Assembly (NCBI GenBank): GCA_041874725.1
Contig: CP097466.1
Coordinates: 2,356,001-2,420,000, forward strand
Source: Duganella sp. BuS-21
Lineage (GTDB): Bacteria; Pseudomonadota; Gammaproteobacteria; Burkholderiales; Burkholderiaceae_D
Reading direction: 5' to 3'
Length of the DNA stretch: 64,000 nucleotides
Shown here piece by piece: positions 38,094 through 59,461 of the stretch (positions within the stretch are counted from its first letter, which is position 1; each line of letters opens with the position of its first letter). A model generated the notes under the pieces. It was not told the origin of the DNA and did no database searches. It saw nothing but the letters and a program-made list of their open reading frames with translations. Made by a program: the position numbers and the translations under genes.

Positions 38094-38109
38094 TGTACGT
38101 CAGCGAACA
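38094..38109. promoter_or_regulatory. Shared 16-bp palindrome, site 1
   Basis: TGTACGTCAGCGAACA, between Gcr and the porin. A weaker second match (centred on the core CGCTAGCG) lies at about 38130-38145. Confidence 0.6.
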
Positions 38110-38214
38110 CAGTTTTCCGGTTTGCAATTCAGCGCTAGCGTGATGATGCGCACAGAGCGGACCTCCGGGACCGCCTACACTGGTGTCAACCATCGCAATC
38201 GCCTATCCGCCATC

Positions 38215-39285
38215 ATGAAACCTGTACTCGCTACGTTTGCTTTGATCGCCCCGCTGGCCGCCATGGCCCAGACGGAGGTGTATGGCACACTCGATGCCGG
38301 CGTGGTGGCTGAACGCGGTTGCCATAAGGAGTGCGCCAACGTCAAGCTCGACAGCGGCATCGCCAGCGCTTCACGCCTGGGTGTGCGCGGACGTGAAGAT
38401 ATCGGCAACGGCACGTCGGCGGTCTACGCGCTGGAAGCCGGCATCCTCAACGATACCGGCGCCTCCGACCAGAACGGCCGGCTGTTCGGCCGTCAGGCCT
38501 ATGTCGGACTGGACGGGCCGCTCGGGTTGGTGACGATGGGCCGTCAGTACAACCTCGTGTATGAAACCTTGACCGACGTGGCCGATCCTTTCCACGGCGG
38601 CATGGCGGGTAGCGCCGCCAACCTGGTCGGCTACACCACCAAGCGCTACGACAATACGGTCAAGTATAAGTCGCCGCGCTCGCGCAGCGGTCTGGTGGGA
38701 TCGGTGATCTATGCCTTCGGCGAGTCGCCGTTCAACAGCCGGGTCAATCGCGCGTATGGCGCCACGCTGGGCTTTGAGAAGGGCAGGTTCAATCTGAGCC
38801 TGACGCATCAACGCAAGGAGAATATGCTGGACGCCACCGGCTCGACGCCGCCCGTCGATCAATCGGCGCGCAACTCGTTGGTGGCGGCCAATTTCGACTT
38901 TGGCCGCTGGGTCGGTTACGCGGCCTACGGCCACAGCCGGGGCGATGCCGGCACGCAGTGGGATGAAACCAATCCTTACGGCGCGGTGGCGCAGCGCTAT
39001 CCGTCCACCAAAAGCCGCGACGTGCTGGTCGGCGTGGCCGTGCCGATGGGCGGAGCCACGACCTTGCTGGCTTCCTATATCCGCAAGGACGATCAGGGCC
39101 TGGCCGATCTCGACGCCGGCCAGCTCGCCATCGGCGCCAGCTATGCGATGTCGAAGCGCACCAATATGTACGCCTCCTTCGCCAAAATCCAGAACCGCAA
39201 CGGCGCCAGCTACACCGTTGGCAATGCCAGCAATCGCGGCAACGGCGACCGCGCCATCAATCTCGGCCTGCGCCACTCCTTCTGA
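38215..39285 (+). CDS. Gram-negative porin (Porin_4 type)
   Basis: 356 residues from the ATG at 38215. Signal peptide ends at AMA-QTE, then the typical start VYGTLDAGVV, SRLGVRGREDIGNGTSAVYALE, GLVTMGRQYNLVYE, and a beta-barrel ending in LGLRHSF. Trimeric porins of this family let small molecules diffuse through the outer membrane. The frame from 37912 runs into the Gcr gene's 5' end and is not real protein. Confidence 0.92.
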   Translation: MKPVLATFALIAPLAAMAQTEVYGTLDAGVVAERGCHKECANVKLDSGIASASRLGVRGREDIGNGTSAVYALEAGILNDTGASDQNGRLFGRQAYVGLDGPLGLVTMGRQYNLVYETLTDVADPFHGGMAGSAANLVGYTTKRYDNTVKYKSPRSRSGLVGSVIYAFGESPFNSRVNRAYGATLGFEKGRFNLSLTHQRKENMLDATGSTPPVDQSARNSLVAANFDFGRWVGYAAYGHSRGDAGTQWDETNPYGAVAQRYPSTKSRDVLVGVAVPMGGATTLLASYIRKDDQGLADLDAGQLAIGASYAMSKRTNMYASFAKIQNRNGASYTVGNASNRGNGDRAINLGLRHSF

Positions 39286-39298
39286 TTACGCCTGAAAT

Positions 39299-39835
39299 TT
39301 ATTTGGGCTTGGCCGGGCAGGTCGCGCTCAGCCAGCGCCCGCTCGATTCGACCGTGGCGGTTTGCGGACCCGCGCCGCTGTGCTTGATTACATTCATGGT
39401 CATGGTGTAGGCGCTGTCGCTGCTGAAGCGGATCTGGCCCTTGCCGCTGGATGCCGGATCGGTGCAGGTGAAGGCGAGGTTCAGTCCGCCTGGCACCTGT
39501 TCCTGCGTGGCGCTGCACTTGCCTTGCTGATTGAGCGGTAGCTCCTTGCGCGCAGCCATCTCCGGCGTCACGCAGGCGGTGAGGGCGATGCCACCGTCGC
39601 CGCTGGCCTTGGGCATGGAGACGCCATTGCGCGCCATCAGCGCTTCCATTTGCGCGCGCTGCTCGGGCGGCATGGCTGCCAGTTGCGCCATCGCCATGCT
39701 CATGGCCTGGTCGGTTTGGGCGTTGCCGGTCTTGACCTTGTTATGGAGTTCCCACAGGCCGGGCTTGATGGACGGGGATTGTGCGGAGGTGGGTACAGCA
39801 GCCAGGATGGCCAGCGTGAGCAATAGACGTTTCAT
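39299..39835 (-). CDS. DUF3617 family exported protein
   Basis: 178 residues from the ATG at 39835 (GGGAGGAC upstream). Signal peptide MKRLLLTLAILAAVPTSAQ, then the DUF3617 start IKPGLWELHNKVK, a Met/Gln-rich helical middle, and C-terminal strands with several Cys (LTACVTPEMA, KCSATQ, FTCTDP). Function unknown. Convergent with the porin. Confidence 0.8.
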   Translation of the reverse strand: MKRLLLTLAILAAVPTSAQSPSIKPGLWELHNKVKTGNAQTDQAMSMAMAQLAAMPPEQRAQMEALMARNGVSMPKASGDGGIALTACVTPEMAARKELPLNQQGKCSATQEQVPGGLNLAFTCTDPASSGKGQIRFSSDSAYTMTMNVIKHSGAGPQTATVESSGRWLSATCPAKPK

Positions 39836-39913
39836 GTGTCCTCCCGAAAACGACCAGCATAAACGAAAACGGCGCCCTAGGCGCCGTTCACGTTCATCCA
39901 ACTGCGAAGATGG

Positions 39914-40060
39914 CTAGACGCCGCGTCCGCTAATCAGACGCAGCAGTACCATGATGATGGCGACTACCAGCAGGATGTGGATGAAGCCGCCAATGGTGTA
40001 GGACGTTACCAGGCCCAGCAGCCACAGGATGAGCAGAACTACAGCGATGGTGTAAAGCAT
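39914..40060 (-). CDS. Lmo0937-type 48-residue membrane protein
   Basis: Translated by hand from the reverse strand: 48 residues starting MLYTIAVVLLILWLLGLV, with a second hydrophobic segment and a short basic tail (RLISGRGV). This is the lmo0937/DUF5670 family of tiny stress-linked membrane proteins. GGAG lies 6 bases before the ATG. The shared palindrome is 56 bp upstream. Confidence 0.85.
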   Translation of the reverse strand: MLYTIAVVLLILWLLGLVTSYTIGGFIHILLVVAIIMVLLRLISGRGV

Positions 40061-40115
40061 GATTATCTCCTCGGGTTGTGTTGAATCTATTATCGGTAAT
40101 ACTTGCTTTGCGTTC

Positions 40116-40131
40116 TGTACGCTAACGTACC
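40116..40131. promoter_or_regulatory. Shared 16-bp palindrome, site 2
   Basis: TGTACGCTAACGTACC, 56 bp before the lmo0937-type gene. Confidence 0.65.
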
Positions 40132-40138
40132 TTGCGCT

Positions 40139-40741
40139 TTAGTCGGCCGAACGCAGCTGGCCTTGGACGACGCGCACCGCGTCGCCGGAGCGCCACGATG
40201 GTTGGGTCGTATGGTGGAAGGTGCGCTTGCTGCCGTTATCCATGCGCACCACGATGTCCCAGGTGTGCGTGGTCTTCATATTGCCTTCGATATGATTGCC
40301 GGCGACCGCGCCGCCGACCGCCCCGACCACCGTGGCGGCTTGGCGGCCATGGCCGCTGCCGACCTGGTTGCCCAGCAGGCCACCCAGCACCGCGCCGCCT
40401 ACCGCGCCGACGCCGCTGCTTTGCGGACGGTGTTCAACCGAGCGCACCGATTCCACCACGCCGCAGCTGGTGCAGGGCGCCTGGCGGGCGACCGGTTCCG
40501 ACATCTGGCCCTGCCCCCGGCCTTGCTGCGCCACCGCAGGTTCGGCAGAGGTGGGCGTCAGCGCTGCCGACGAGGACGTCGATGCCGTCGGCGGCATGCC
40601 GCTCACTTGGGTGGGAACGGTGGCGTTGGAGCTTGGCAGCCAGCCCAGCAGCGCTGCGCTGCCTACGCCGCAGAACAAGACGACGGCGACGGCGGCGATG
40701 ACCATAACGGGATGGGTGCCTGACTTGTGTTGGGTGTCCAT
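40139..40741 (-). CDS. Glycine-zipper 2TM protein with N-terminal membrane anchor
   Basis: 200 residues. N-terminal transmembrane segment (about 13-33), Ser/Thr/Pro linker, then a glycine-zipper 2TM region (VGAVGGAVLGGLLGNQVGSG, and VVGAVGGAVAGNHIEGN), then a C-terminal strand domain with WDIVVRMDNGSKRTFH. Similar to outer-membrane proteins such as PcpY/SlyB. AGGA precedes the ATG. A palindrome copy lies 76 bp upstream, shared with the divergent Crp/Fnr gene. Confidence 0.85.
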   Translation of the reverse strand: MDTQHKSGTHPVMVIAAVAVVLFCGVGSAALLGWLPSSNATVPTQVSGMPPTASTSSSAALTPTSAEPAVAQQGRGQGQMSEPVARQAPCTSCGVVESVRSVEHRPQSSGVGAVGGAVLGGLLGNQVGSGHGRQAATVVGAVGGAVAGNHIEGNMKTTHTWDIVVRMDNGSKRTFHHTTQPSWRSGDAVRVVQGQLRSAD

Positions 40742-40816
40742 GAGGGAATCCTTTTTTGTTGTTGATTGAGATGAAGCATTTCAAACGATATTTTCCTAGA
40801 GGACATCTATTTCTTC

Positions 40817-40832
40817 CGTGCGTCATCGTACA
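40817..40832. promoter_or_regulatory. Shared 16-bp palindrome, site 3 (Crp/Fnr gene promoter)
   Basis: CGTGCGTCATCGTACA, 34 bp before the likely start of the Crp/Fnr regulator and 76 bp before the divergent glycine-zipper gene. Its position suggests autoregulation. Confidence 0.65.
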
Positions 40833-40866
40833 TACAGGGCAAATAATTGCCCTTACTCTTGGTTGC

Positions 40867-41583
40867 ATGCATACCTCCAGCCTACATACCACCGACGACC
40901 GCGCGCTGCCCCGCCTGGCGAACAACCGCCTGTTGGCCAGCCTGCCGGACGACGACCAGCTCCAGCTCGCGGAAAAATGCGAAACGGTCCGTGTGGAAAA
41001 CGGCCAGTTGCTGTCGGAGCCGGGCGAGGAAATCCGCTATGTATATTTCCCTATCGATTGCCTGATCTCGTTGCTCGGTGTGGCGGAAGGCCGCATGACG
41101 CTGGAGATCGGTTCGCTGGGACGCGAGGGCATGCTTGGCGCGTCGGTGGTGCTGGGGCACGAACTGGCGCAGGTGAGGGCGGTGGTGCAGCGTTCGGGCC
41201 GTGTTTATCGTCTGGCCGTCGGCGACTTCGTCACCGAGTTTTATCGCATGGAATCGCTGCGCCGCCTGGTCCATCGTTACACCGACGGCATGCTGGCGCA
41301 AGCCATCCAGATCGCTGTGTGCAGCCGCTTCCATGTACTGGAGGCGCGTCTGGCGCGTTCGCTGCTGATCACGCGCGACCGCCTGCGATCGGACAAATTT
41401 CACCTTACCCACGAGTTTCTCGCCCATGCCCTGGGCGTGCGCCGGGTAGGCGTCACCAAGGCAGCCAGTGCGCTGCAACAGCAAAAGCTGATCACCTACA
41501 GCCGCGGCAATATCGAGATCCTCGATTCGACGGGACTGGAAGCCGTCTCCTGTCATTGCTACGATCTGTTCAAGGAAAAGTAA
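40867..41583 (+). CDS. Crp/Fnr-family transcriptional regulator
   Basis: 238 residues from the ATG at 40867; upstream starts in the same frame would run through the palindrome. N-terminal cyclic-nucleotide-binding-type barrel (ENGQLLSEPGEEIRYVYFPIDCLISLL, EIGSLGREGMLG) without the usual cAMP-phosphate arginine motif, a dimer helix, and a C-terminal winged helix (FLAHALGVRRVGVTKAASALQQQKLI). It belongs to the Crp/Fnr branch found with stress genes in Proteobacteria. It probably binds the palindrome repeated in this window (inference). No Fe-S cysteines are seen. Confidence 0.9.
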   Translation: MHTSSLHTTDDRALPRLANNRLLASLPDDDQLQLAEKCETVRVENGQLLSEPGEEIRYVYFPIDCLISLLGVAEGRMTLEIGSLGREGMLGASVVLGHELAQVRAVVQRSGRVYRLAVGDFVTEFYRMESLRRLVHRYTDGMLAQAIQIAVCSRFHVLEARLARSLLITRDRLRSDKFHLTHEFLAHALGVRRVGVTKAASALQQQKLITYSRGNIEILDSTGLEAVSCHCYDLFKEK

Positions 41584-41667
41584 AGCGCTGTAACGCGCTC
41601 GCCTGCAGTCGGCCTCGCTTTGCCTTTTGTCATACGACGGCGAGTGCTATCGCGGCAAACTGGGCGG

Positions 41668-42786
41668 ATGCCGAACATCGCTCATCCCGCGCATCCCGCG
41701 CATCCCGCTCGTTATGACCTGCCATGGAAAGCTGCGTTGACGCATGCTTTCCACCCCTTCATGGATTTCTACTTTCCCGACTTCAGCACCCACATCGATT
41801 GGACGCAGCGGCCGCGTTTCCGGGACAAGGAGCTGGCAGGGATAGTTATCAGCACCACGCCGGACGTGATGGTGGCAGACAAGCTGGTCGAGGTATCCAT
41901 GCGCGACGGCGCCGAGGAGCGCATACTAGTCCACATTGAAATCCAGGCGCAGCGAGACGCGGCGTTGGCGCGGCGCGTGCACGATTACAACTACCACATC
42001 GGCAAGACCTATGGCCAACCGGTGGCCAGCCTGGTGCTGCTGGCCGATGCCGAGCCCAACTGGCGGCCCAGTCGCTTCTATCAGCAGATGCGGGGCACGG
42101 CAAGGAGATTTTCGTTCGCGACCGCCAAGCTGCTCGATTACGCCGATACCGATGCGCTGGAAGCGTCGCACCATCCGTTTGCCTGGGTAACGCTGGTCCA
42201 CCTGTGCACCCAGCAGGCGCATCATGATCCCGATGCGCTCTGCGCGGCCAAGTTGCACTTGACCCGATTATTGTTCAAGCATCGCTGGAAGCGCAGGCGC
42301 ATAATTGTACTATTCAATGTGATCAACTGGATGATGGCCTTGCCTGAGCCGCATCAGCGGCGCTACTGGCAGGCCGTTCTCCGCATGGAGAAGGAGCACG
42401 AAATGAAATTGCTCAACCCATTGGAGCAAATGTTCCTCGAAGATGGCATAAAAAAGGGCCTGGAGATGGGCGTGGAAACAGGCATGGAAAAGGGCCTGCA
42501 GAAAGGCCTTGAGAAAGGCCGTCGCGAGGGCTTGCAGCAGGGACTTGAACAAGGACTCGAGCAAGGAATTGAGCAAGGACTCGAGCAAGGACTCGCCCGC
42601 GGGCGCGTGGAGGGGGCGGCCGCGCTACTGGAACGATTGCTGGTCCAGCGTTTCGGGCCATTGCCGAAGACTGTACGCAGCAAGCTCGCCAAGGCCAGTG
42701 TGGGCCAAGTGGAAGCCTGGAGTGACGCGCTGCCGGCGGCCCAGACTCTGAAGCAGGTCTTTGCGACGACCACAGCAATCCGTTAA
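41668..42786 (+). CDS. Rpn/PD-(D/E)XK-type nuclease-family protein
   Basis: 372 residues from the ATG at 41668. The N-terminal part matches Rpn-family (recombination-promoting nuclease, 'putative transposase') proteins: DFYFPDF, ADKLVEV, and LVHIEIQAQRD, which carries the PD-(D/E)XK-like E-x-Q. The C-terminal region is a run of Gly-Leu-Glu-Gln/Lys four-residue repeats (about 265-310), then a DUF4351-like end. It starts with a 9-bp DNA repeat coding AHP three times. Relatives nick DNA and are sometimes linked to anti-phage defence or recombination; not a mobile element by itself. Confidence 0.8.
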   Translation: MPNIAHPAHPAHPARYDLPWKAALTHAFHPFMDFYFPDFSTHIDWTQRPRFRDKELAGIVISTTPDVMVADKLVEVSMRDGAEERILVHIEIQAQRDAALARRVHDYNYHIGKTYGQPVASLVLLADAEPNWRPSRFYQQMRGTARRFSFATAKLLDYADTDALEASHHPFAWVTLVHLCTQQAHHDPDALCAAKLHLTRLLFKHRWKRRRIIVLFNVINWMMALPEPHQRRYWQAVLRMEKEHEMKLLNPLEQMFLEDGIKKGLEMGVETGMEKGLQKGLEKGRREGLQQGLEQGLEQGIEQGLEQGLARGRVEGAAALLERLLVQRFGPLPKTVRSKLAKASVGQVEAWSDALPAAQTLKQVFATTTAIR

Positions 42787-42800
42787 GCGTCAATAGATCA

Positions 42801-42838
42801 TCAAAAAAAATGCCGCCCAGTCTTAGCTGAACGGCATT
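42801..42838 (-). terminator. Rho-independent terminator for the glycine-zipper lipoprotein
   Basis: On the minus strand AATGCCGTTCAG and CTGGGCGGCATT flank a short loop (CTAAGA), with two G-T pairs, and a run of eight T follows. It lies 40 bp after that gene's stop. Confidence 0.8.
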
Positions 42839-42877
42839 CGACTCTCAGGTCGGTCTTTTAGCTGACGCGTCAGGCGA

Positions 42878-43102
42878 TCAACGTGGTGGCTTTTGCACCT
42901 GGTTGCCGATCACGCCGCCAACGGCCGCGCCGCCCACTGCGCCGACTGCGCTGCCGCCGGTCAGGACCGAGCCGGCCACCGCACCCACGCCCGCGCCGAT
43001 GGCGGTGTTCTTGTCCTGACCCGACATGTTGGCACATGCGCTCAGACCGACGGTGGCTGCCACGACGGCGGCCGTTGCTGCGATACGCTTGATGTTGTTC
43101 AT
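42878..43102 (-). CDS. Glycine-zipper lipoprotein
   Basis: 74 residues. Signal with lipobox GLSAC near residue 23, then a glycine zipper (IGAGVGAVAGSVLTGGS, VGGAAVGGVIGNQVQ). This is the small outer-membrane lipoprotein type often raised under envelope stress. A terminator follows. A weak palindrome copy lies about 80 bp upstream. Confidence 0.88.
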   Translation of the reverse strand: MNNIKRIAATAAVVAATVGLSACANMSGQDKNTAIGAGVGAVAGSVLTGGSAVGAVGGAAVGGVIGNQVQKPPR

Positions 43103-43182
43103 GGTTTTCTCCTGTGGCAGGCGAGGCGCGGTATTGCGCCTCAACCAATGACTACAGCTTACGCAACGGTGTCTCCCACTTC

Positions 43183-43198
43183 CGTTCGCCACCACACA
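43183..43198. promoter_or_regulatory. Shared palindrome, weak site 4
   Basis: CGTTCGCCACCACACA has one clear mismatch in the right half (CACACA for CGCACA). Lies upstream of the glycine-zipper lipoprotein, at the end of the AsmA gene. Confidence 0.35.
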
Positions 43199-43209
43199 CA
43201 GCTCTCGAA

Positions 43210-45195
43210 TCAGCGCGGGCGCGGTGCGCTGGGCTTGCCGCCGCCTTGGGCGATCAAGGCCTGGCAGCCCGAGGTCTCGCGCGGAGCTGTGCTCATCAGC
43301 GGCACGATGGCGGCCACCGGCGCCACTGCCGCCAAGGCCAGGGCGCCGCCTGCGCGCAGGGCCAGCGTGCCCCTGTCGATGCTGATCTCGGCTTGCTTGA
43401 AAGTGCCGCGCAGATAGATGGGCGCGCGCAGCGACAGCACGCGCATGCTCTTGGCGTCCGGCCGCAGCACCAGGTCGAGTTTCTCGTTGCCGAGGTTGAC
43501 AGTGCCACCGATGTCGATGCGGGCATCGGCCGTGTCCACCACGAACAAACGCGTCTTCATCAGGCCGTTGGTGACGGCAAAATCGGTCACCATGCAGTTG
43601 AGCTTGACCTGCTTGTCGCCCGAAATCTTGGTCAGCACCACGCTGCCGATGTTCAGGCCCATGGCTTCCAGCAGCAGCTTGCTGACGCTGCCCTGGTTGA
43701 CCACGCCCTTCAGCTCGCCGCTCGAGGAACCGAGCAGGCTGGCCACCGAATTGCCGGTGGCCGACAGCGAGACGCCGGCGTTGACTTCACCGACTGTTGC
43801 CTGCATGCCGTCGATGCCGGGGAACAGCTGCTTGAGCTGCAGCTTGCTGGCATCGGCCTTCAGTTCGGCGCGGATGGCGTGCGGATTGATCTTGCCGCTG
43901 CCGTCGAGCATGATGGTGGAGGTGAAGCGGCCGCCGGCGATGTCGAAATTCAGCGGCGTCAGCGCCAGCACGCCGTCCTTCATGTGGATCTGCGTATCCA
44001 GATTATGGATCGGCAGGTCCTTGTCGCGCGTGATGCGCGCGGCCTTGAAGTTGACGTCGGCGTCGATCGCGGTCCAGCGTTCGGTGCGGAAGGTTTCCAC
44101 CGGCAGCACGCGGTTGCCCGGCTGTAGCGCGTCAGCGCCGCGCGCTTCCTTGCTGGCCTTGGAATCGGCGCCGATCAACGGGCCGAGGTCGGACACCTGC
44201 AGCAGCTTCGATTGCACGTTCCCGCTCAGCAGCGGGCGCGCTTGGGCCTGGCCGCTCTTGAAGTCGAGCTTGCCGGCGATGTCGCTCTGGCCGACCTTGC
44301 CGGTGAACTGGTCGTAGACCCAGTGGCTGGCGTGCTGGCCCAGGTTGCCGGTCAAATGGCCCTCGGTGACGAAGGGCGGCGTTTCCGGCAGCAGCACACC
44401 GGTCAGGCCGTACAGCCGCGCCATGCTCGGACCGGACAGCTTGAGCCGCATGTCGAGCGCCGTCAGCGCCGCCGGCTTGGTCAGCGTGCCGTCGAAGCTG
44501 ATGCTGGTGCCGCCGACGTTGAGGTGGGCCGCAAGCGGGTAGGGCGCGGTCTGCTGCTGCAGCGACAGCACCGCGCCGGCCTTGCCGCCGCCGCTGACGT
44601 CCTGCTGGTTCCATTTGCCGCGCAACTGCCAGGTCACGCCGTAGCGAGGGTCGTCGATGGTGTCGATGGTAGCGCTGGCGTCGAGGTGAGCCATGGCGTC
44701 GATGTAGTGCACCGTGCCTTTGGCGAACACCACGCGGCGCACCTCCAGCGTCCACACCGAGGGCTGGTCGTGGTGCTTGAAGTTCCAGTTGTGGCGGCCG
44801 TCGGCGTCGCGCTGCAGCAGCAGGGCAGGATTGTCGAAGCGCAGTTCCGGCACCACGATGCGCTGGCGCAGCAGCGGCAACAGCTCGATGGCAAACGCGA
44901 ACTGGCCGACGCTGGCCATCTCGGCCGGCGCCTGCATGCCGCGCGGATTGCCGATATGAACGTCGCGCGCCACCAGATGCGGCTGCGGCAGCCAGCTGTC
45001 CTGTCGACGCCAGTCCAGCGCGAGTGGGCCGCGAACCTCGAACGGGCGGTCGATCGCCGCACCGATCTTGTCGTTGAGCCACGGCCGCGCCCGCTCCCAG
45101 TCCACCGTGCTGAGCGCGACAATGGCGGCGACTGGCGCCGCCAGCACGATGGCGCTGGCGGCCAGGGCAATACGGGTACGACGCGGGAGGGCCAT
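43210..45195 (-). CDS. AsmA-family envelope protein
   Basis: 661 residues. N-terminal transmembrane segment (about 8-28), then AsmA-type repeats: VDWERARPWLNDKIGAAIDRPFEVRGPL, NPRGMQAPAEMASVGQFAFAIELLPLL and IVVPELRFDNP, with the C-terminal core NFDIAGGRFTSTIMLDGSGKI. These proteins form grooved bridges thought to move phospholipids to the outer membrane. AAGG precedes the ATG. It is divergent from the DUF4398 lipoprotein over a gap holding a palindrome copy. Confidence 0.88.
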   Translation of the reverse strand: MALPRRTRIALAASAIVLAAPVAAIVALSTVDWERARPWLNDKIGAAIDRPFEVRGPLALDWRRQDSWLPQPHLVARDVHIGNPRGMQAPAEMASVGQFAFAIELLPLLRQRIVVPELRFDNPALLLQRDADGRHNWNFKHHDQPSVWTLEVRRVVFAKGTVHYIDAMAHLDASATIDTIDDPRYGVTWQLRGKWNQQDVSGGGKAGAVLSLQQQTAPYPLAAHLNVGGTSISFDGTLTKPAALTALDMRLKLSGPSMARLYGLTGVLLPETPPFVTEGHLTGNLGQHASHWVYDQFTGKVGQSDIAGKLDFKSGQAQARPLLSGNVQSKLLQVSDLGPLIGADSKASKEARGADALQPGNRVLPVETFRTERWTAIDADVNFKAARITRDKDLPIHNLDTQIHMKDGVLALTPLNFDIAGGRFTSTIMLDGSGKINPHAIRAELKADASKLQLKQLFPGIDGMQATVGEVNAGVSLSATGNSVASLLGSSSGELKGVVNQGSVSKLLLEAMGLNIGSVVLTKISGDKQVKLNCMVTDFAVTNGLMKTRLFVVDTADARIDIGGTVNLGNEKLDLVLRPDAKSMRVLSLRAPIYLRGTFKQAEISIDRGTLALRAGGALALAAVAPVAAIVPLMSTAPRETSGCQALIAQGGGKPSAPRPR

Positions 45196-45241
45196 GGCAA
45201 ACCTTATCTTGATAGTTGCATCATTCTACACATTCCCCTTT

Positions 45242-45257
45242 TGTGCGTCACCGTACT
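45242..45257. promoter_or_regulatory. Shared 16-bp palindrome, site 5
   Basis: TGTGCGTCACCGTACT, between AsmA (46 bp away) and the DUF4398 lipoprotein gene (61 bp away). Confidence 0.65.
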
Positions 45258-45318
45258 GATGGCAACGCGACATGCGTTTATAACTACGCTCATCCCACCA
45301 AACTTGAGGAGAAAAATA

Positions 45319-45708
45319 ATGAGGAACTTAAACACCCAATGGCAGATGATGGCTGGTATCGCATTGTTGGTCGGCCTGAGCGGCTGCGCCAGCGACAAAA
45401 CCCCGGCCACGGCCGGCGTTGCCGTCTCCCGTGAAGCGATCGCCGCCGCCACCAGTGCCGGCGCCGCCGATCTGGCGCCGGCAGAAATGCAATCGGCGCG
45501 CGAAAAGCTGATGCGCGCCAATCAGGCGCTGGCCGCCAAGGATTACAAAACCGCCCAGGACCTGGCGGTGCAAGCGCAGGCCGATGCCCAGCTGGCGCAA
45601 AGCAAGGCCAATTCGGCCAAGGCCACCACCGCAGCCGACGAGCTGCAACAAAATATCCGTCTGCTGCGCGAAGAACTGCAGCGCGCCAACGCCACCAGCC
45701 AACAATAA
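45319..45708 (+). CDS. DUF4398 lipoprotein
   Basis: 129 residues from the ATG at 45319 (GAGGAG upstream). Lipobox GLSGCAS, then the DUF4398 helical region (DLAPAEMQSAREKLMRANQALA, KDYKTAQDLAVQAQADAQLA) and coiled-coil to the end. It is followed 24 bp later by an OmpA protein with a similar helical region, so the pair probably works together in the periplasm. Function not established. Confidence 0.88.
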   Translation: MRNLNTQWQMMAGIALLVGLSGCASDKTPATAGVAVSREAIAAATSAGAADLAPAEMQSAREKLMRANQALAAKDYKTAQDLAVQAQADAQLAQSKANSAKATTAADELQQNIRLLREELQRANATSQQ

Positions 45709-45732
45709 GTACTTAACTACATGGAGCCCATT

Positions 45733-46647: not shown

Positions 46648-46672
46648 CTTTCTCACCCAATAAGGACTGACC

Positions 46673-47218: not shown

Positions 47219-47299
47219 CAGGGTTTAAACAAGCCGGCGTCGAGCCGGCCGCATTTGCTGTACAGTTTTCACATCAACCACCATAACAGGAGCTTCATC

Positions 47300-47602: not shown

Positions 47603-47608
47603 GCTACC

Positions 47609-49437: not shown

Positions 49438-49491
49438 TTTATCCTCCTGGAAAAGTGTGATACCAGCATAGACACTTAACGCCGGGCGATC

Positions 49492-49507
49492 TGTGCGCTT
49501 ACGCACT
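49492..49507. promoter_or_regulatory. Shared 16-bp palindrome, site 6
   Basis: TGTGCGCTTACGCACT, upstream of the SlyB-like gene. It is 47 bp from site 7, so the divergent pair has two sites. Confidence 0.65.
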
Positions 49508-49538: not shown

Positions 49539-49554
49539 AGTACGCTAGCGTACA
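49539..49554. promoter_or_regulatory. Shared 16-bp palindrome, site 7
   Basis: AGTACGCTAGCGTACA, a perfect inverted repeat through its inner 14 bases, about 108 bp before the BON gene. Confidence 0.7.
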
Positions 49555-49662
49555 GAGCGCGCTCTGGATTCAGCGTCTAATGGCACATCGGTAGCAGAGA
49601 CGTCATCACTTAAACGTCCCGCTGGCTGACAAACTCATTTTTTCAAACCAAGGAGAATCGCC

Positions 49663-51174: not shown

Positions 51175-52023
51175 GCTGGTGCGCAAGCTGCCCAGCTGCA
51201 AAGCATATTGACGCGCAAACTCGGCGCCGAAGAAGAAGATCTGCGCCGAGTAATACACCCACAGCAGCAGGGCGATCATTGAGCCGGCGGCGCCAAAGCT
51301 GCTGGCCACGCCGCTGTTGCCGATATAGGCGCCGATCGCATATTTCCCCAACGTGAACAAGGCGGCCGTTCCCAGCGCGCCGATGGTCACGTCATGCCAC
51401 GACAATTTGATCCGAGGCAGCATCTTGAAGATCACGCCAAACAGCGCGGCGATCACCAGAAAACTGATGGCCAGGTTCAGCGCCGACAGGATCATCCCCG
51501 CTTCACCCCACAGGCTTCCCCAGTATTTCTCCAGCAGCGTCAGCACGGCGCTGACCACCAGCGACACCATCAACAGGAAAGCCAGCACCAGCACCATGCC
51601 GAACGACAGCAGGCGGGTGCGGATCACGTTCCAGAACGTGCCCTTGGTCAGCGGCGGGACTTGCCAGATGGCGTCCAGGCTGTCTTTGAGTTCGGCAAAT
51701 ACGGTGGTGGCGCCGAACAGCAGCAGGGCGCTGGCGATCAAGGTGGCCAGCCGGCCTTCCTCCTTGTTCTTCGCCCCGGCCAGCACCAGCTGGATCGCTT
51801 CCGCGCCTTGCGTGCCGACCAGGCCGCGCAGCTGGGCAAATAGTTCACCCTGCGCCGCCTGCGGCCCGTAAAACCAGCCGGCAATCGCCAGCACCAGCAC
51901 CAGGATCGGCGCCAGCGAAAACAGCGTGTAGAACGCCAGCGCCGCGCCCATGCTGCCGCCGCGATGCTCGAACCATTCGGAAATGGCGCACTTGAATACA
52001 GAGAGTAAGGTTTTTGTCTTCAT
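51160..52023 (-). CDS. YihY/BrkB-family membrane protein
   Basis: 287 residues with six transmembrane segments. Family features: GAALAFYTLFSLAPILVL, LKDSLDAIWQVPP, LPRIKLSWHDVTIGALGTAALF and YYSAQIFFFGAEFAR. Once called RNase BN in error; now regarded as an inner-membrane transporter-like protein (virulence factor BrkB family). Real function unsettled. Confidence 0.92.
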   Translation of the reverse strand: MKTKTLLSVFKCAISEWFEHRGGSMGAALAFYTLFSLAPILVLVLAIAGWFYGPQAAQGELFAQLRGLVGTQGAEAIQLVLAGAKNKEEGRLATLIASALLLFGATTVFAELKDSLDAIWQVPPLTKGTFWNVIRTRLLSFGMVLVLAFLLMVSLVVSAVLTLLEKYWGSLWGEAGMILSALNLAISFLVIAALFGVIFKMLPRIKLSWHDVTIGALGTAALFTLGKYAIGAYIGNSGVASSFGAAGSMIALLLWVYYSAQIFFFGAEFARQYALQLGSLRTSSLTQ

Positions 52024-52099
52024 GGAAAAGGGTCATCACGGATTTACGGGAATAGATTTGGCATGATGGGCTTGATGTTGCTTGGCGCTTTGAAAGCCG

Positions 52100-52179
52100 G
52101 CGGCACCAAGCCACCCCGCACACCGCTGCGGCCAGGGTCAGACCCCGAGGGGGCTGACCCTCCCCCCCCCCGAGGTGGC
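52100..52179 (+). repeat. Dispersed intergenic repeat, copy A
   Basis: GCGGCACC, 7 bases, CCCGCACA, 1 base, CGCTGCGGC, then GGGTCAGACCCC and a GGGCTGACCCT partner that can fold back on it, ending GGTGGC. Copy B at 63244 has the same blocks in the same order and spacing. Confidence 0.75.
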
Positions 52180-52211
52180 CCCTCGCAGCAGTTTTCATCC
52201 GCGAACAAGCC

Positions 52212-52242
52212 AAAAAAAAACCCCGCAACCGAAGTTGCGGGG
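52212..52242 (-). terminator. Rho-independent terminator after OmpA gene
   Basis: On the minus strand CCCCGCAAC and GTTGCGGGG around TTCG, followed by nine T. It lies 14 bp after the stop. Confidence 0.9.
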
Positions 52243-52256
52243 CGATTCATTGCTGT

Positions 52257-53297
52257 TTAAGGAACGCGACGTTCGATGGTGATTTGTTCCACCTCTACGC
52301 GACGGTTAGGTTCCAGGCACTTGATCAGGTCAGCGCGTTTTTTGTCGTTGCACTCAACCACAGGGCTCGACTCGCCTTTGCCGACGGCGTTCAGGCGGTT
52401 GGCGGCAACACCTTTGGCGACCAGGTAGTCCTTGACCGCATTGGCGCGGCGCTCGGACAGTTTCTGGTTGTACTTGTCGCTGCCCAGACGGTCGGCGTGA
52501 CCGGAGATGGTGACGTCGCTGATGCCGCTGTTGGTGTTCAGCACGGTGGCGATGTCGTCCAGCTTAGGCTGGTTCGGGTTCAGCTTGGCGCTGTCAAACG
52601 TGAACAGCTCGGTGGCCGACATCGTCACTTTTTCAAAGCGCGCCGGCGCTGGTGGCGGCGGTGCTGGTGGTGCTGGTGGCGGTGGTGGTTCCACAGCGGC
52701 TACGGGGGCTGGCGGCGGCGCCGGTGGGGTTGGACGCGGTGGCGCGTTGAACGCGATGTTCAGGCCCACGGTCGCATAGTAGTTGTTGCTCTTGCTGTTA
52801 GGGAAGACGCCGTCACGGATGAAACCGTGCACATTGCGCAGGTCCGCTTGCAGGGCGACGCGTTCGCTCAGGTCGGCCTGGAAGCCCAGGCCGGCGCTCA
52901 GGTAAGGCGAGTTCTTGCGGCGTTCGATATTGCCGACCAGATTGGCCTTGTCGCGTTCAACACCGGCGCCGATCAGCAGGAAAGGACGGAACGATTTACG
53001 GGAGAGCATCAGCAGACCGTCCACGCCCAGCGTGTTTTGCTGGTAGCGCTGGCCGTTTTCGTCGCTGCTGGCGTAGGTCGTGCCCACTTGCACGTCCCAG
53101 TTCTGGTTCACGGCTTTACCGAATTTCAGGCCGCCGCCGTAACCGCGCTTGTCCACGCCGAAGTCGGAATCAGGCTTGATACCGTTCACGCTAGGCTGGA
53201 TGTACCACGATGGGTTGATGACCGCATCTTGGGCCATGGCGGAGAACGACGCACAGAGGACTGCAGCGGCGAGGGCGATTTTTTTTGATTTATTCAC
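52257..53297 (-). CDS. OmpA-family outer-membrane protein
   Basis: 346 residues from a GTG at 53297 (GGGAG at 8 bases); the longer frame upstream runs into the promoter. Signal peptide ends AMA-QDA. N-terminal barrel domain (SWYIQPSVNG, GYGGGLKFGKAVNQNW, YATVGLNIAF), a Pro/Ala-rich linker, and an OmpA peptidoglycan-binding domain (ISGHADRLGSDKYNQKLSERRANAVKDYL). Major structural porin-like protein. Palindrome sites lie upstream. Confidence 0.93.
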   Translation of the reverse strand: MNKSKKIALAAAVLCASFSAMAQDAVINPSWYIQPSVNGIKPDSDFGVDKRGYGGGLKFGKAVNQNWDVQVGTTYASSDENGQRYQQNTLGVDGLLMLSRKSFRPFLLIGAGVERDKANLVGNIERRKNSPYLSAGLGFQADLSERVALQADLRNVHGFIRDGVFPNSKSNNYYATVGLNIAFNAPPRPTPPAPPPAPVAAVEPPPPPAPPAPPPPAPARFEKVTMSATELFTFDSAKLNPNQPKLDDIATVLNTNSGISDVTISGHADRLGSDKYNQKLSERRANAVKDYLVAKGVAANRLNAVGKGESSPVVECNDKKRADLIKCLEPNRRVEVEQITIERRVP

Positions 53298-53392
53298 AGG
53301 TAAGCTCCCGAATTGTTTGAAAATGTTTCGATGCCAGCAATGTTGTTGCACCGCTGATGGACCGAAGATTAGGCAAGTTGGTTCTTTCTCAC

Positions 53393-53408
53393 CGTTCGCT
53401 AGCGCACA
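53393..53408. promoter_or_regulatory. Shared 16-bp palindrome, site 8
   Basis: CGTTCGCTAGCGCACA, 95 bp before the OmpA start. Confidence 0.65.
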
Positions 53409-53498
53409 CAAGTTTGACCTGTCTCAAAACGGTCACATTTGCTGAAAACTTATTTGGATGACATTTGTCCCATCGTAAGGACATAGATGCCTCAATAA

Positions 53499-53514
53499 TG
53501 TTCGTTGCCGCACA
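53499..53514. promoter_or_regulatory. Shared 16-bp palindrome, site 9
   Basis: TGTTCGTTGCCGCACA, 64 bp before the winged-helix gene; 106 bp from site 8 in the same divergent gap. Confidence 0.6.
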
Positions 53515-53578
53515 GACTGCGGCCGCACATGCGGGCATTCTTGGGCATAAGGCATACCCAATCTTAAGGAGTGATCCC

Positions 53579-54205
53579 ATGCACGCAGTCAGCAAACAAC
53601 AAACCCTGGTCCAAAACGAGATGAAAGCCTCGCCAGAGATGCAGGCGACGACAGCGCGCCTGACCATGGTCGATCGTTCGACCCCGGCCCCACTGGACCG
53701 CAAGCCAGCCCTGTCGATGGCGTCCATCGAACGTGTGCGCTCGACTTCGGCCACCCTGCGCCGCATCGAAAACATGCAAAAGCTGATCGCCGAGTTGACC
53801 CAGCACGAAATGCTGGCCGACGAGATCGCCTGGTTCCTGAAATTTTCGCCGTCCGGCGCCCGTAAATATATCCGCGACCTGCGCGAGGCCGGCGTGATCG
53901 AGCTGTCGCGCTATGTCGAAGGCACGGCCACCTATCTGGGTAAGGCGGTGTATCAGCTGACTCCCGACCCGGAGCGCATTGCCGCCTTCCTGGCCGCCAT
54001 CGCCCAGCCGAAACGCGAAGGTGCGCCGCCACGCAAGGAACGTCCAGGCCTGCGCGAACAAGCCATGTCGGGCAGCGGCCGCCACTTCCATATTCTGGCC
54101 GACGATACGCACTATGCGATTCGCGTCAATCGCGGCCCGGTGATGCGCGATCCGCTGGTGGCTGCACTGTTCGGTACGCCGGCTTCGCAGCAAAAAGCAG
54201 AGTAA
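53579..54205 (+). CDS. Winged-helix-like regulator, unknown family
   Basis: 208 residues from the ATG at 53579 (AAGGAG at 7 bases). Residues about 80-145 look like a winged helix (KLIAELTQHEMLADEIAWFLKFS, ARKYIRDLREAGVIELSRYVE, AVYQLTPDPERI), with a basic C-terminal tail (RHFHILADDTHYAIRVNRG). I do not know a named family for the whole protein. It is divergent from OmpA with a palindrome copy in its promoter region, so it may be part of the stress response. Confidence 0.7.
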   Translation: MHAVSKQQTLVQNEMKASPEMQATTARLTMVDRSTPAPLDRKPALSMASIERVRSTSATLRRIENMQKLIAELTQHEMLADEIAWFLKFSPSGARKYIRDLREAGVIELSRYVEGTATYLGKAVYQLTPDPERIAAFLAAIAQPKREGAPPRKERPGLREQAMSGSGRHFHILADDTHYAIRVNRGPVMRDPLVAALFGTPASQQKAE

Positions 54206-54296
54206 GCGTCCCGCCGCAGGGGTATGATGTTTGCATATTGAAATGTAAACAAGCAACCCCAACTACTCCGTCAAGACATACAACGGACAGCGGCAT

Positions 54297-55172
54297 ATGG
54301 AAGCTTTGATCTGGATAGGCCTGACGGCGCTGCTGATTGCAGCGCCATTTTTCTTGCCGCGCTGGCGCCTGCGGCGCGTGCTGGCGCGGCCGTTGCCGCC
54401 CCAGGCGGAGGCCGTGTTGCAGCGGAACATACCCGTCTACACACGCATGAGCCCGGATCTACAGCGGCAGCTGCGGCACATGGTGGTGCAGTTCCTGCAT
54501 CAAAAGAAATTCGTCGGCTGCGAAGGACTGGAGGTGACCGATGAAATGGCCGTCACCATCGCCGGGCAGGCTTGCCTGCTGTTGCTGAACCGCCCCAGCA
54601 AGGTCTATCCGGCCTTGCACACCATCCTGGTCTACCCCAGCGAATTCGTGGCGCAGCGCGCCGAAGTAGGGCCGGGCGGCGTAGTCACGCCGGGCCGCCA
54701 GAGCATGCTGGGCGAATCGTGGGACGATGGCCGCGTGGTGCTGTCCTGGGACAATGTCCAGCGCGGCGCCGCCGACTGGACCGACGGCCACAACGTGGTC
54801 CTGCACGAATTCGCCCATCAGCTCGACAGCGAATCGGGCCGCGCCAACGGCGCCCCCTACCTGGGCAATCCGGCCAGCTACCGCGAATGGTCGGAAGTGC
54901 TGTCGCGCGACTTTCAAAACCTGCGCATGAATGCCATGTACCGCCAGCAGACGGTAATGGACCCCTACGGCGCTACCAACCCGGCGGAATTCTTTGCCGT
55001 GGCGACCGAAACCTTCTTCGAAAAACCGTACCAGATGGCCGAGCACCACGCCGAGCTGTACGCGGAATTCCTCAAATACTACCGCGTCGATCCGCGCGAA
55101 TGGATGACGCCACCTGCGCCGCCTCCGCCAGTGCAAGAAGCGCCGCCTTACGGCTATGTCGCCGGCTGGTAA
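54297..55172 (+). CDS. mtfA: MtfA-family zinc peptidase (M90)
   Basis: 291 residues. N-terminal transmembrane segment (about 5-21), then the MtfA zinc protease with HEFAHQLD (His170, Glu171, His174) and a downstream acidic ligand in FFAVATETFFEKP. E. coli MtfA binds and inactivates the Mlc repressor and is an aminopeptidase. Here the N-terminal membrane helix makes it membrane-bound, as in many Proteobacteria outside the enterics. A Pro-rich tail follows. Convergent with the signalling operon. Confidence 0.9.
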   Translation: MEALIWIGLTALLIAAPFFLPRWRLRRVLARPLPPQAEAVLQRNIPVYTRMSPDLQRQLRHMVVQFLHQKKFVGCEGLEVTDEMAVTIAGQACLLLLNRPSKVYPALHTILVYPSEFVAQRAEVGPGGVVTPGRQSMLGESWDDGRVVLSWDNVQRGAADWTDGHNVVLHEFAHQLDSESGRANGAPYLGNPASYREWSEVLSRDFQNLRMNAMYRQQTVMDPYGATNPAEFFAVATETFFEKPYQMAEHHAELYAEFLKYYRVDPREWMTPPAPPPPVQEAPPYGYVAGW

Positions 55173-55177
55173 GACGG

Positions 55178-55674
55178 CTACAAGATAATTGAGCCGTCGT
55201 CGCTGCGCTTGACGTGCAGCAGGCCCGGCTCCTCCTGTTCCAGCCGGCGCGCCTCGAGTTCCTGCGCACTCGGGCTGCGGCCGGCCTCGGCCAGCAGGCG
55301 CTGGCGTTCGTCCAGCGCCTGCAGCATGTTTTGCTCCAGCTCCGACTGCTGCCACGGCTTGGAGATGAAGCGGAACACCTGGGCCTCGTTGATGGCGGTC
55401 ATGGCGGTCTGGAAATCGGTGGAGGCGCTCAGCATGATGCGCACCGTGGTCGGGGCGACGTCCTTGAGCGCCTGCAGGAACTCGCCGCCGCTCATTTCCG
55501 GCATCATGAAATCCGACACCACCAGGTCGAACTCGCACACGCAGATGCGGTTCAACGCCTCGAACGGGTTGGTGAAGGTTTCGATCTGGGCCCCGGCCAG
55601 CGGCTTGCTTTGGCGCAGCGCGCGCTGCAGGGCGCTCAGCATATTCGGTTCATCGTCCACCAGCAGTATGCGGC

Positions 55675-55678
<4 letters not shown>
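55178..55678 (-). CDS. Response-regulator receiver protein
   Basis: 166 residues, a single receiver domain with acidic pair VDDE, phosphoacceptor Asp56 in VVSDFMMPEMSGG, the conserved Thr/Ser in MLSAS and Lys in FRFISKPWQ, followed by a helical tail (LQALDERQRLLAEAG). No DNA-binding output. It overlaps the end of the histidine kinase gene by four bases (ATGA), so they are a pair; it may pass phosphate on or bind another protein. Confidence 0.93.
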
Positions 55679-57051
<1,373 letters not shown>

Positions 57052-57072
57052 GGCTGGCCCCTGATTGATGAC

Positions 57073-57879
57073 TCAGTTGATTAAAATCTGGCACATATCG
57101 TTTACCGTCAGCGTGCAGTGCTCGGTCAGCTGGCGGCGTTGTTCGTCGTCGAAGGCCAGCGTGGCCCAGGTCGACTCCTTGTCATCGGCCGGGCCGGCCA
57201 GCAGATGTGCCAACCCCACCGCCAGCGCCAGTCCGGTGGCATCGGCGCGGTGCTGCTGGCTGATGGCGTCCTGTATCGCCAGCGGAAATTTCCAGTGCGC
57301 CGCCAGCGCCCGGCCGGCCTCGGTGTGGTCGACGCCGAACACGGCCAGCTCCGCCTCCGCCAGGCTGGCGTCCTGGTGGACCTTGCGCCACAGCGGCACG
57401 GCGGCATATTCCTCGGGGAAGCGGGTGGCCAGCACCAGCGTGCCGAGGTTGTGCAGCAGGCCGGTGGTAAACGCGGCGTCCGGGCTTTGCCGCAGGTGGC
57501 GCGCCAGCGCGCGCGCCCACACGGCGGTGGCGATGGCGTGGCGCCAGAAGGCGTCGAAGTCGAGCGGCGTGCCGGGCGCCTTGGGCACGGCGCCGATGAC
57601 GCCGCAGGCCGTCACCAGCGTGCGCACGCTGTGCAGGCCCAGCACCGACATCGCCTGCGGGATGCTGATCACTTTGGATGGCATGCCGTAGAACGAGGAA
57701 TTGGCCAGCCTCAGCGTCTTGGCGGTCAGGGCCTGGTCGAGCGCGAGGCGGCCGGCCAGGTAGTTCAGGTCGATATCGTCTACGTCCTCCATGCTGGATA
57801 GCAGTTCGGCCACCACCGCCGGCAGCGAGGGCAGATCGTGCACGCGGCGCACCACTTCCTCGAGCGCGACCGGGCTCAT
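57073..57879 (-). CDS. HDOD-domain signalling protein
   Basis: 268 residues from the ATG at 57879, overlapping the upstream stop by four bases. HDOD fold: VHDLPSLPAVVAELLSSM, LTAKTLRLANSSFYGMPSK, ISIPQAMSVLGLHSVRTLV, FTTGLLHNLGTLVLA and GVDHTEAGRALAAHW. HDOD lacks the HD metal residues and is a non-catalytic protein-interaction domain linked to c-di-GMP and motility signalling. Confidence 0.93.
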   Translation of the reverse strand: MSPVALEEVVRRVHDLPSLPAVVAELLSSMEDVDDIDLNYLAGRLALDQALTAKTLRLANSSFYGMPSKVISIPQAMSVLGLHSVRTLVTACGVIGAVPKAPGTPLDFDAFWRHAIATAVWARALARHLRQSPDAAFTTGLLHNLGTLVLATRFPEEYAAVPLWRKVHQDASLAEAELAVFGVDHTEAGRALAAHWKFPLAIQDAISQQHRADATGLALAVGLAHLLAGPADDKESTWATLAFDDEQRRQLTEHCTLTVNDMCQILIN

Positions 57880-59378
57880 GTCGCGTCTCCCGCCAGGCTG
57901 AAGGTCAGCAGGCTGCCGCGCGAGGCCGAATGCCGGCCCATGGCATAGGCGTGCACGGCGTAGCGCCGGCCTGCGATGTCGACCTGGCGGCCGGCGGCCG
58001 GCGCCGCCGCTGTGGTGTCGAACAATTGCGGCAGCACGGCGCGCGCCTGGTTGCCGAGCAGGGCGCCGCTGTGCGCGAACAACTGGCCGGCGGCGCCGTT
58101 GATGAAGGCGATCATGCCATCGTCGTCCAGGCCGATCACCGCCAGCGGCAGCTGCTGCAAGACTTCGCGCGCGATGCCGAGGCTGATCTCGTCGCGGTCG
58201 ATCTGGCGCTGCATCTGGTGCAGCAGCTGCTCCATGCGGCGGTTGGCGCCGGCCAGTTCGTGGTTGGCATTGCGCACCTCCATGTTCAGGCGCGCGTTGT
58301 CGTCGGCAATTTCCTTGAGGCGGAAGGCGTCGGCCAAATGGCCCCGCAACTGCGCATCGTTCCACGGCTTGGTGAGGAATTTGTAGATTGCACCCTCGTT
58401 GACGGCCTCGGTGACCGATTGCAGTTCGGTGTAGCCGGACAGCATGATGCGGAGGGTGTCCGGCCGCAGGATGCGTGCGCGGCGCAGGAAGTCGGCGCCG
58501 CTCAGTCCGGGCATGCGCTGGTCGGAGATGATGACGTCGACCGGCTGCTGCGCCAGCATCTCCAGCGCCTGCTCGCCGCAGTCGGCGCTCAGGATGTGGT
58601 AGCCGTCCGGCCGCAGCAAGCGCTTGAGCGCCGACAGGATATTGGCCTCGTCGTCCACCAGCAGCAGGCAGCGGCGCCGCGTCGGGTTGCGCAGCAGCTG
58701 CGGTGGCAGCCGCCGGTCCTCGCGCAGCAGGGCGCCAACGTCGACGGCAGACAGCGGCGCCGCGTACAGGTCGCCCTGCACCAGGTCGCACAGGTTGGTG
58801 CGCAGGAAGGCGCACTGTGCTTCGGTGTGCACGCCGTCGGCGGCGATGCGGATGCCGAGATGGTGGGCCATGGCGATCAAGGCCTGGCACCGTGCGGCGG
58901 CAGCGGCGTCGTCGGCCACGCTGCGCACGCGCGCGGCGTCGAGCTTGACGTAGTCGAAGGGATAGCGCAGGAGATGGGTCAGGCAGGCCGGGCCGGCGCC
59001 GAAGTGGTCCAGCGTGAGGCAGGCGCCCAGCTGCTTGAAGAAATCCAGCGCGCGGTCGCTGGCGTCAGGATCGCGGCTGAGGGTCGCCTCGTCGAGTTCC
59101 AGCGTCAGCGCGGCGGGCTGGACATTGCATTGTTCGAGCACGGCCGCCACCTCGTGGCCGAAGGCCGGATCGTGCAGTTGTGCCGACCCGACGTTGATGG
59201 TCACCTGCAGATCGCCGCCGGCCAGCACGCCGCCTTGCCACAGCTGGCGGTCGGCGCAGGAGCGGCGCAGCAGCGGCAGGCTGCCGGAACCCGGCGACAG
59301 CATCTCCAATCCGGCGACCGCGCCATTGCGCAAATCGACCAGCGGCTGGTATCGCGGCGGCGTCTCATCGAACTCCAT
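57876..59378 (-). CDS. Degenerate EAL - receiver - PAS-like hybrid protein
   Basis: 500 residues. About 1-225: EAL-type barrel with replaced catalytic motifs (GLEML for E-A-L, ELDEATL for E-x-x-E-S, LDHFGAG for DDFGTG, AADGVHTE for AEGVET); it is probably a c-di-GMP binder or a dead enzyme. About 240-360: receiver with VDDE, the Asp in VIISDQRMPGLSG and the Lys in FLTKPWN. About 365-410: coiled-coil. About 415-495: a PAS-like domain (LPLAVIGLDDDGMIAFINGAAGQLF). AGGA precedes the ATG. First gene of the operon. Confidence 0.88.
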   Translation of the reverse strand: MEFDETPPRYQPLVDLRNGAVAGLEMLSPGSGSLPLLRRSCADRQLWQGGVLAGGDLQVTINVGSAQLHDPAFGHEVAAVLEQCNVQPAALTLELDEATLSRDPDASDRALDFFKQLGACLTLDHFGAGPACLTHLLRYPFDYVKLDAARVRSVADDAAAAARCQALIAMAHHLGIRIAADGVHTEAQCAFLRTNLCDLVQGDLYAAPLSAVDVGALLREDRRLPPQLLRNPTRRRCLLLVDDEANILSALKRLLRPDGYHILSADCGEQALEMLAQQPVDVIISDQRMPGLSGADFLRRARILRPDTLRIMLSGYTELQSVTEAVNEGAIYKFLTKPWNDAQLRGHLADAFRLKEIADDNARLNMEVRNANHELAGANRRMEQLLHQMQRQIDRDEISLGIAREVLQQLPLAVIGLDDDGMIAFINGAAGQLFAHSGALLGNQARAVLPQLFDTTAAAPAAGRQVDIAGRRYAVHAYAMGRHSASRGSLLTFSLAGDAT

Positions 59379-59445
59379 CAGGCGTTCCTATCGAAATGGA
59401 AGCTTGCTGCTCGAAAATACTATCGACTGATTATACGGCCAAACA

Positions 59446-59461
59446 TGTGCGGGAGCGAACG
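59446..59461. promoter_or_regulatory. Shared 16-bp palindrome, site 10
   Basis: TGTGCGGGAGCGAACG, 56 bp before the glycine-zipper stress protein; the last base differs from the consensus. Confidence 0.5.

Follow-up and report, generated by a model that had tools for sequence, protein, structure and literature searches.

The locus and its boxes

The DNA considered here (the window) is a 64-kb stretch of the 6.49-Mb single-contig genome of Duganella sp. BuS-21 (contig CP097466.1, positions 2,356,001 to 2,420,000). An island within it, from 38094 to 59461 in window coordinates, holds genes for glycine-zipper, OmpA, BON-domain, lmo0937-type and other proteins, a gene for a Crp/Fnr-type regulator of 238 residues (40867-41583, plus strand; recognition helix GVRRVGVTKAAS), and ten copies of a 16-bp palindrome, TGTnCG-N4-CGnACA, referred to here as the box. 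Judged by its sequence and placement, the palindrome is a real feature and its copies are an operator set with class II geometry; we consider it likely that the regulator, alone or together with close paralogues, activates this envelope/stress island through the box.

The ten sites listed in a preliminary description of this DNA all carry the sequences claimed for them. Their near-identity holds with a qualification: the match is exact at 38094 and 53499, and the other seven strong sites have one mismatch each, at an outermost base. A core of eight specified bases (GTnCG-N4-CGnAC) is matched in full by nine sites, and the site described as weaker, at 43183, has seven of the eight. All nine exact cores are intergenic, as the description had it (a simple custom gene caller was used), and they are the only exact cores of the window, every one of them lying inside 38094-59461. 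The genome-wide count of 174 leads one to expect about 0.55 cores per 21.4 kb, against the nine observed (Poisson P about 7e-9 for at least nine, computed after the region had been chosen). The loose pattern that allows two mismatches occurs 63 times in the window, against a shuffle mean of 43, with 63 reached by 1 of 100 shuffles; on its own this is only a modest excess over chance, and would not convince. With the flanking T and A counted, the palindrome spans about 20 bp and reads TnTGTnCG-N4-CGnACAnA, its middle being pyrimidine-purine.

A fixed distance to the -10 element

The strongest feature is one that the preliminary description did not mention: at all ten sites a -10-like hexamer starts exactly 21 bp past the 16-bp box on at least one strand. 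(The spacing was first noticed by eye and scored afterwards, with the better strand used at each spacing.) For the boxes of the window the mean hexamer score is 4.05 at spacing 21 and 1.02-2.8 at 25 other spacings, and some single sites score higher elsewhere (45242 at 13, 59446 at 10). Counted back from the -10, the 21-bp spacing places the centre of the box at -41.5 relative to the transcription start, itself inferred from the -10 hexamer. This is the position at which CRP and FNR act as class II activators. About a dozen promoters with a box at -41.5 are found in the 21-kb island, and the arrangement recurs in relatives.

The rule was examined in 80 loci of other Oxalobacteraceae (Duganella, Rugamonas, Janthinobacterium, Pseudoduganella, Massilia and a few others), which were fetched by similarity to the regulator protein, without use of the motif, and which are syntenic with the window and so not fully independent of it. 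Their 1.52 Mb contains 574 core boxes. Nine control patterns, permuted or re-spaced, give 22-63 matches in the same DNA, and two CG-rich controls give 141 and 147. A good -10 (score at least 3.4, better strand) stands at 21 bp from 465 of the 574, and from 10-80 of them at the other spacings between 10 and 35; when boxes with similar surroundings are removed, the figures are 146 of 198 and 2-26. Box positions cluster at -2 to 0, +1, +3 and +7 to +9 kb of the regulator. The averaged promoter, for which boxes with a -10 at 21 bp were chosen, has the sequence TnTGTnCG, pyrimidine-purine middle, CGnACAGA, a consensus-free spacer, and TAnnnTG. The 39 loci examined in distant relatives, whose regulators are mostly 34-54% identical (67% in one case), contain 67 boxes; 31 of these carry the -10 at 21 bp, compared with 0-7 at other spacings, and several of the loci have no box. 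An operator at -41.5 combined with a -10 element is thus common to the window, the 80 loci and the distant relatives, with starts inferred throughout.

Chance palindromes or a dispersed repeat family might be suspected, given how common the loose pattern is in the window (63 matches) and how often the bare core occurs in the genome (174 times, with 19 of 25 copies in an 800-kb sample lying within genes). This explanation is already refuted, in our judgment: box density, intergenic placement and phasing all exceed chance, and the spacers are nearly without common sequence (at most 0.12 bits per base over spacer positions 19-34), so the boxes are not a copied repeat.

The regulator gene and its box

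The box at 40817-40832 (eight of eight core bases) lies between the regulator gene and a divergent glycine-zipper gene, with a -10-like TACTCT at 40854-40859 (plus strand) on the regulator side and GAAAAT at 40790-40795 (minus strand) on the other, each 21 bp away. A box stands upstream of the gene's own orthologue in 77 of 79 testable loci, within a range from 220 bp before to 60 bp inside the matched regulator start. (L051 and L092 have no box in that range; L090 is too short and was excluded.) When the 77 loci are aligned on the box, conservation of the box columns is partly by construction, rows having been picked by box; the two -10 elements, TAnnCT on the regulator side and GAnAAT on the divergent side, are also conserved, and most other flanking columns are not. 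It thus seems that two back-to-back class II promoters share a single operator. The regulator promoter is kept in 72 of 78 orthologues and that of the glycine-zipper gene (40741) in 54 of 69, by the orthologue check described below.

The inferred start for the regulator lies about 1 nt before its ATG in the window. In many other genera, 100-200 bp separate the box from the matched regulator start, and the ATG assigned in the window may not be the true start codon.

The regulator protein

The C-terminal part of the protein is a Crp-type winged helix-turn-helix (PF13545 HTH_Crp_2, 50.4 bits against a cut-off of 27). Pfam matches the DNA-binding domain alone, with no PF00027 in the window protein; many of the listed orthologues do have the cyclic-nucleotide domain. 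A structure model (mean predicted local distance difference test score, pLDDT, 71) retrieves Crp/Fnr-type proteins as the 50 best Foldseek matches listed (best E 3e-13, but TM-score only about 0.5), led by structures of CRP, GlxR and FNR, in agreement with an N-terminal beta-barrel sensor domain and long dimer helix. A search of solved relatives likewise gives a Crp/Fnr protein as best sequence match (E 1e-4). Apart from its own copy, the nearest database protein among the matches listed belongs to Duganella sp. PWIR1, with 98% identity, in keeping with the genus of the window.

An ungapped reading against L020, the SRETVTR paralogue, shows that of the CRP residues R180, E181 and R185 the helix keeps R180 and replaces E181 by V194 and R185 by K198. 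Base-contact residues are largely conserved across the family, according to a recent survey (PMC12531629), and the branch with VRRxG[VI]T helices therefore looks like an exception. The idea that the change of E181 to V explains the unconserved fourth base was dropped, since VRREGVT proteins adjoin the same box.

A C-terminal CxCY (C229, C231, Y232; window 41551-41583) is invariant in 36 aligned orthologues, and may be a redox or metal site. A search for a phage origin gave no match to the regulator among 50,697 phage records.

Which protein reads the box

The preliminary description spoke of the only Crp/Fnr gene in the window. This is correct for the window; the genome holds 10 HTH_Crp_2 proteins above the Pfam cut-off. 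The helices of the paralogues read VRRESIT, VRREGVT or VRREGIT, apart from two of the classical SRET and LETVSR kinds; the window's own helix, LGVRRVGVTKAAS, is identical in the sequences read from all 80 orthologue loci.

Promoters and regulator were also compared over 120 genomes of the order, with a profile of 45 positions derived from 40 promoters in other genomes and with strict filters. Of the 41 genomes that contain a strong match to the regulator (E below 1e-20), 17 have at least four profile hits and 31 at least one; among the 79 others the figures are 1 and 19. These counts were tallied by hand with thresholds set after viewing, and regulator-bearing genomes tend to be larger. Among the profile matches listed, all 52 with E at or below 0.03 fall in the 41 regulator genomes, four of them in the window's own. 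(Counts of the bare box over the same 120 genomes were discarded as uninformative: the window's own genome has 174 boxes and 238 matches to a reversed control.)

In a phylum-wide sample, 27 of 199 genomes have a regulator match at E at or below 1e-30. Among the 15 loci whose regulator has a VRRxG[VI]T helix, 10 hold a core box within the fetched flanks, against 0 of 12 others (Fisher P 4e-4), where the sorting is post hoc, the helix is unreadable in six of the 12 box-less rows, and three loci are left out: L224 (the window), L251 (which overlaps L228) and L232 (helix not read; one box). Taken with the boxes that adjoin VRREGVT regulators, this suggests that the box belongs with the VRRxG[VI]T branch and may be shared among paralogues. 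A variant box with seven of the eight bases (TGTnAG...CGTACA) is found upstream of VRRESVT regulators at L212 and L213, with a perfect TATAAT 21 bp away; there the altered helix and the altered half-site may be linked.

The dimer site proposed in the preliminary description is thus strongly backed by the fixed -41.5 placement, by the box upstream of regulator orthologues and by the order-wide co-occurrence. Several observations weigh against activation of the island through the box by the window's regulator. Close paralogues exist in its own genome; 10 of the 41 strong-regulator genomes lack a profile hit and 19 of the 79 others have at least one; in distant relatives boxes are found upstream of VRREGVT regulators as well; box promoters are weakly conserved at two presumptive targets, the BON gene (31 of 75 orthologues) and AsmA (24 of 64, with another spacing reaching 19); and palindromes are bound by many kinds of regulator, binding of these boxes by a Crp/Fnr protein being a prediction.

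Two other assignments were weighed. The box might be read mainly by one or more of the VRREGVT/VRREGIT paralogues (such as L022, L024 and L025), the window gene being merely a target or competitor. Boxes upstream of VRREGVT regulators in other genomes (L116, L117, L207, L214, L220) and close to regulators with a VRRxG[VI]T helix in other orders would fit this, as would a full box about 0.6 kb from L024 and a seven-of-eight box preceding L025. Yet among ten Crp-type loci examined in the genome a full box directly upstream with -10 elements on both sides occurs at the window gene alone, the island surrounds that gene, and its helix is constant in the sequences read from the 80 loci; we regard such a paralogue-centred arrangement as unlikely. 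A dimeric regulator of another family that binds the palindrome at -41.5, with the Crp/Fnr gene nearby by accident, is less credible still, in view of the order-wide co-occurrence with this particular regulator, the box at 77 of 79 regulator genes, and a length and position that match class II Crp/Fnr sites.

Island and genome

An 800-kb sample of the genome, taken as forty 20-kb stretches at even spacing, contains 25 core boxes, of which six are intergenic (24%, against 15% non-coding DNA); a -10 at 21 bp accompanies just one of the 25, or two if a borderline score is counted. Outside the island, then, the bare box is not clearly a promoter element. The preliminary description would have given up the regulon if promoter matches were no commoner than matches inside genes, and for the bare box outside the island this is nearly what is found. 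The regulon it proposed survives mainly as a local island, to which about seven dispersed promoters can plausibly be added, and not as a genome-wide set. It had also proposed a matrix search: with the 45-position profile, 7 of the 11 best hits in the window's own genome fall in the island, a result that the syntenic training loci favour, and 150 of 2268 first-look candidates were scored.

Among 15 places examined outside the window, seven are plausible promoters. Their genes encode an Ala/Lys-rich secreted protein, a crystallin/glycine-zipper protein, a PRC-barrel protein, a LigD-type DNA ligase, an RcnB-family protein and two response regulators, one of the latter near paralogue L024. At L149 (G000:C1:2965414) the box promoter lies 33 bp before the gene for the LigD-type ATP-dependent ligase, hinting at a link between the regulon and DNA repair.

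Promoters of the island

Conservation was assessed for 26 window genes in the 80 loci, a box promoter being a box with at least seven of eight bases and a facing -10 at 21 bp, no more than 300 bp upstream. Of 14 box-less control genes, ten have none, one has 1 of 74, the gene at 39299-39835 has 15 of 56, and two are without orthologues. (Loose boxes without the -10 rule are not rare upstream of control genes; 23 of 74 and 13 of 17 are examples.)

At the left edge the box at 38094-38109 (minus strand; -10 TATACT, 38067-38072) faces the SpecificRecomb gene (36063-38060, minus), where a box promoter is present in 38 of 65 orthologues and another spacing reaches 26. The inferred start coincides with the ATG at 38060, and would give a leaderless mRNA. 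The porin that the preliminary description placed among the box-promoter genes has been removed from them: a facing box promoter is found in 2 of 29 porin orthologues, the good -10 at 38094 points to SpecificRecomb instead, and the porin is probably not a target.

The lmo0937-type gene has its box at 40116-40131 (minus; -10 GATAAT, 40089-40094), kept as a box promoter in 67 of 78 orthologues. Beyond the shared regulator operator, the weak box at 43183-43198 (minus; -10 TAAGCT, 43156-43161) precedes a glycine-zipper gene (43102), with 35 of 47. The box at 45242-45257 (plus; -10 TATAAC, 45279-45284) heads a run of DUF4398, OmpA, ferritin-like and DUF883 genes; the DUF4398 gene has a box promoter in 71 of 74 orthologues, another spacing reaching 65. 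This box possibly also serves AsmA on the minus strand. Two boxes lie close together farther on: 49492-49507 (minus; -10 TATGCT, 49465-49470) for a glycine-zipper gene (49437; 64 of 66 orthologues), and 49539-49554 (plus; -10 TCTAAT, 49576-49581) for the BON-domain gene.

A second pair comprises 53393-53408 (minus; -10 TAATCT, 53366-53371), upstream of an OmpA gene (53297), and 53499-53514 (plus; -10 CATTCT, 53536-53541), upstream of a gene for a 208-residue protein (53579-54205); the fetched flanks stop short of both genes, and 0 orthologues of either entered the check. The 208-residue protein has no Pfam or NCBIfam match and, by eye only, resembles a small helix-turn-helix regulator. The last box, 59446-59461, lies between an EAL/receiver-domain gene (minus) and a glycine-zipper gene (plus), with CACACT at 59483-59488 (plus) and GATAGT at 59419-59424 (minus); both genes were left out of the 26-gene check.

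Two further features of the island deserve mention. The gene at 41761-42786 contains successive EQGLEQG-like repeats and matches DUF4351 below the threshold, and in this it resembles Rpn-type nuclease genes. The gap at 52130-52170 contains a GC-rich repeated piece (GGGTCAGACCCC / GGGGCTGACCC), followed by a C run.

Comparison with known Crp/Fnr systems

The class II promoters of E. coli CRP offer a close likeness: fold, a 16-bp two-fold operator beginning with TGT, and a centre at -41.5 are all shared with the window system. On the other hand, Pfam does not recognise CRP's cyclic-nucleotide domain in the window protein. The half-sites also differ, since the window box has CG at its fifth and sixth bases and E. 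coli CRP has GA at the fourth and fifth; the CRP consensus is given as TGTGA-N6-TCACA (PMC5449483). Operator halves of that kind (TGTGA/TCACA) are found in frame in none of the ten boxes.

FNR recognises, like FixK, TTGAT-N4-ATCAA, and has an N-terminal cysteine cluster for its Fe-S centre. Superfamily, class II use and the N4 between half-sites are common to FNR and FixK-type systems and the window, and the half-site is different; the first 30 residues of the window protein contain no cysteine, and thus no FNR-type N-terminal cluster. RedB of Rhodobacter capsulatus is likewise a newly described Crp/Fnr subgroup with its own motif, which is described as a non-palindromic AT-rich 12-mer with 115 scattered chromatin immunoprecipitation (ChIP) peaks (PMC9603854). 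The window box, unlike that motif, is a palindrome with CG steps and belongs mainly to a local island.

No NCBIfam model names this regulator group, and among the matches listed databases call it 'Crp/Fnr family' or 'CRP-like cAMP-binding protein'. A literature search retrieved, among the papers listed, no recognisable report of box or helix, a weak negative, since the slash spelling Crp/Fnr and subscription papers may escape it. Matsui et al. in 2013 (cited in PMC12531629) reportedly treated target motifs of the superfamily, and may already show a similar one.

A proposed mechanism and its meaning

As an operator, the palindrome would be bound by a dimer of the Crp/Fnr type, which activates class II promoters from it. 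The regulator encoded at 40867-41583 is predicted to bind it through the VRRVGVTK helix and, once bound, to contact RNA polymerase next to the σ factor. From one shared box it would raise expression of its own gene and of the divergent glycine-zipper gene; from the others it would turn on envelope-protecting glycine-zipper, OmpA, BON/OsmY-like and lmo0937-type proteins, perhaps AsmA, and also the ferritin-like and DUF883 genes that follow the DUF4398 promoter. The inducing condition would be an envelope, osmotic or stationary-phase kind of stress; the genome also encodes RpoS, and the regulator may not be alone in its stress role. The box may be bound by close paralogues as well.

A wider proposal is put forward tentatively, as one that we would stop a little short of calling probable: that a large, unnamed VRRxG[VI]T branch of Crp/Fnr proteins in several groups of Pseudomonadota reads TGTnCG-N4-CGnACA and regulates itself, and that in Burkholderiales it is a dedicated envelope/general-stress activator, its class II promoters being assembled in a single island around its own gene, with a few dispersed targets (such as LigD-type ligase, PRC-barrel and RcnB-family genes).

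For a widespread group of regulators known by general names only, the analysis supplies a DNA-binding box, a precise rule for promoters and a predicted regulon. Box and 21-bp rule together predict promoters for poorly understood envelope proteins (glycine-zipper, BON, lmo0937-type), and the stresses to which these may respond. Helix and inner half-site both differ from those of CRP, and the group would thus provide a clean case of a change in recognition code.

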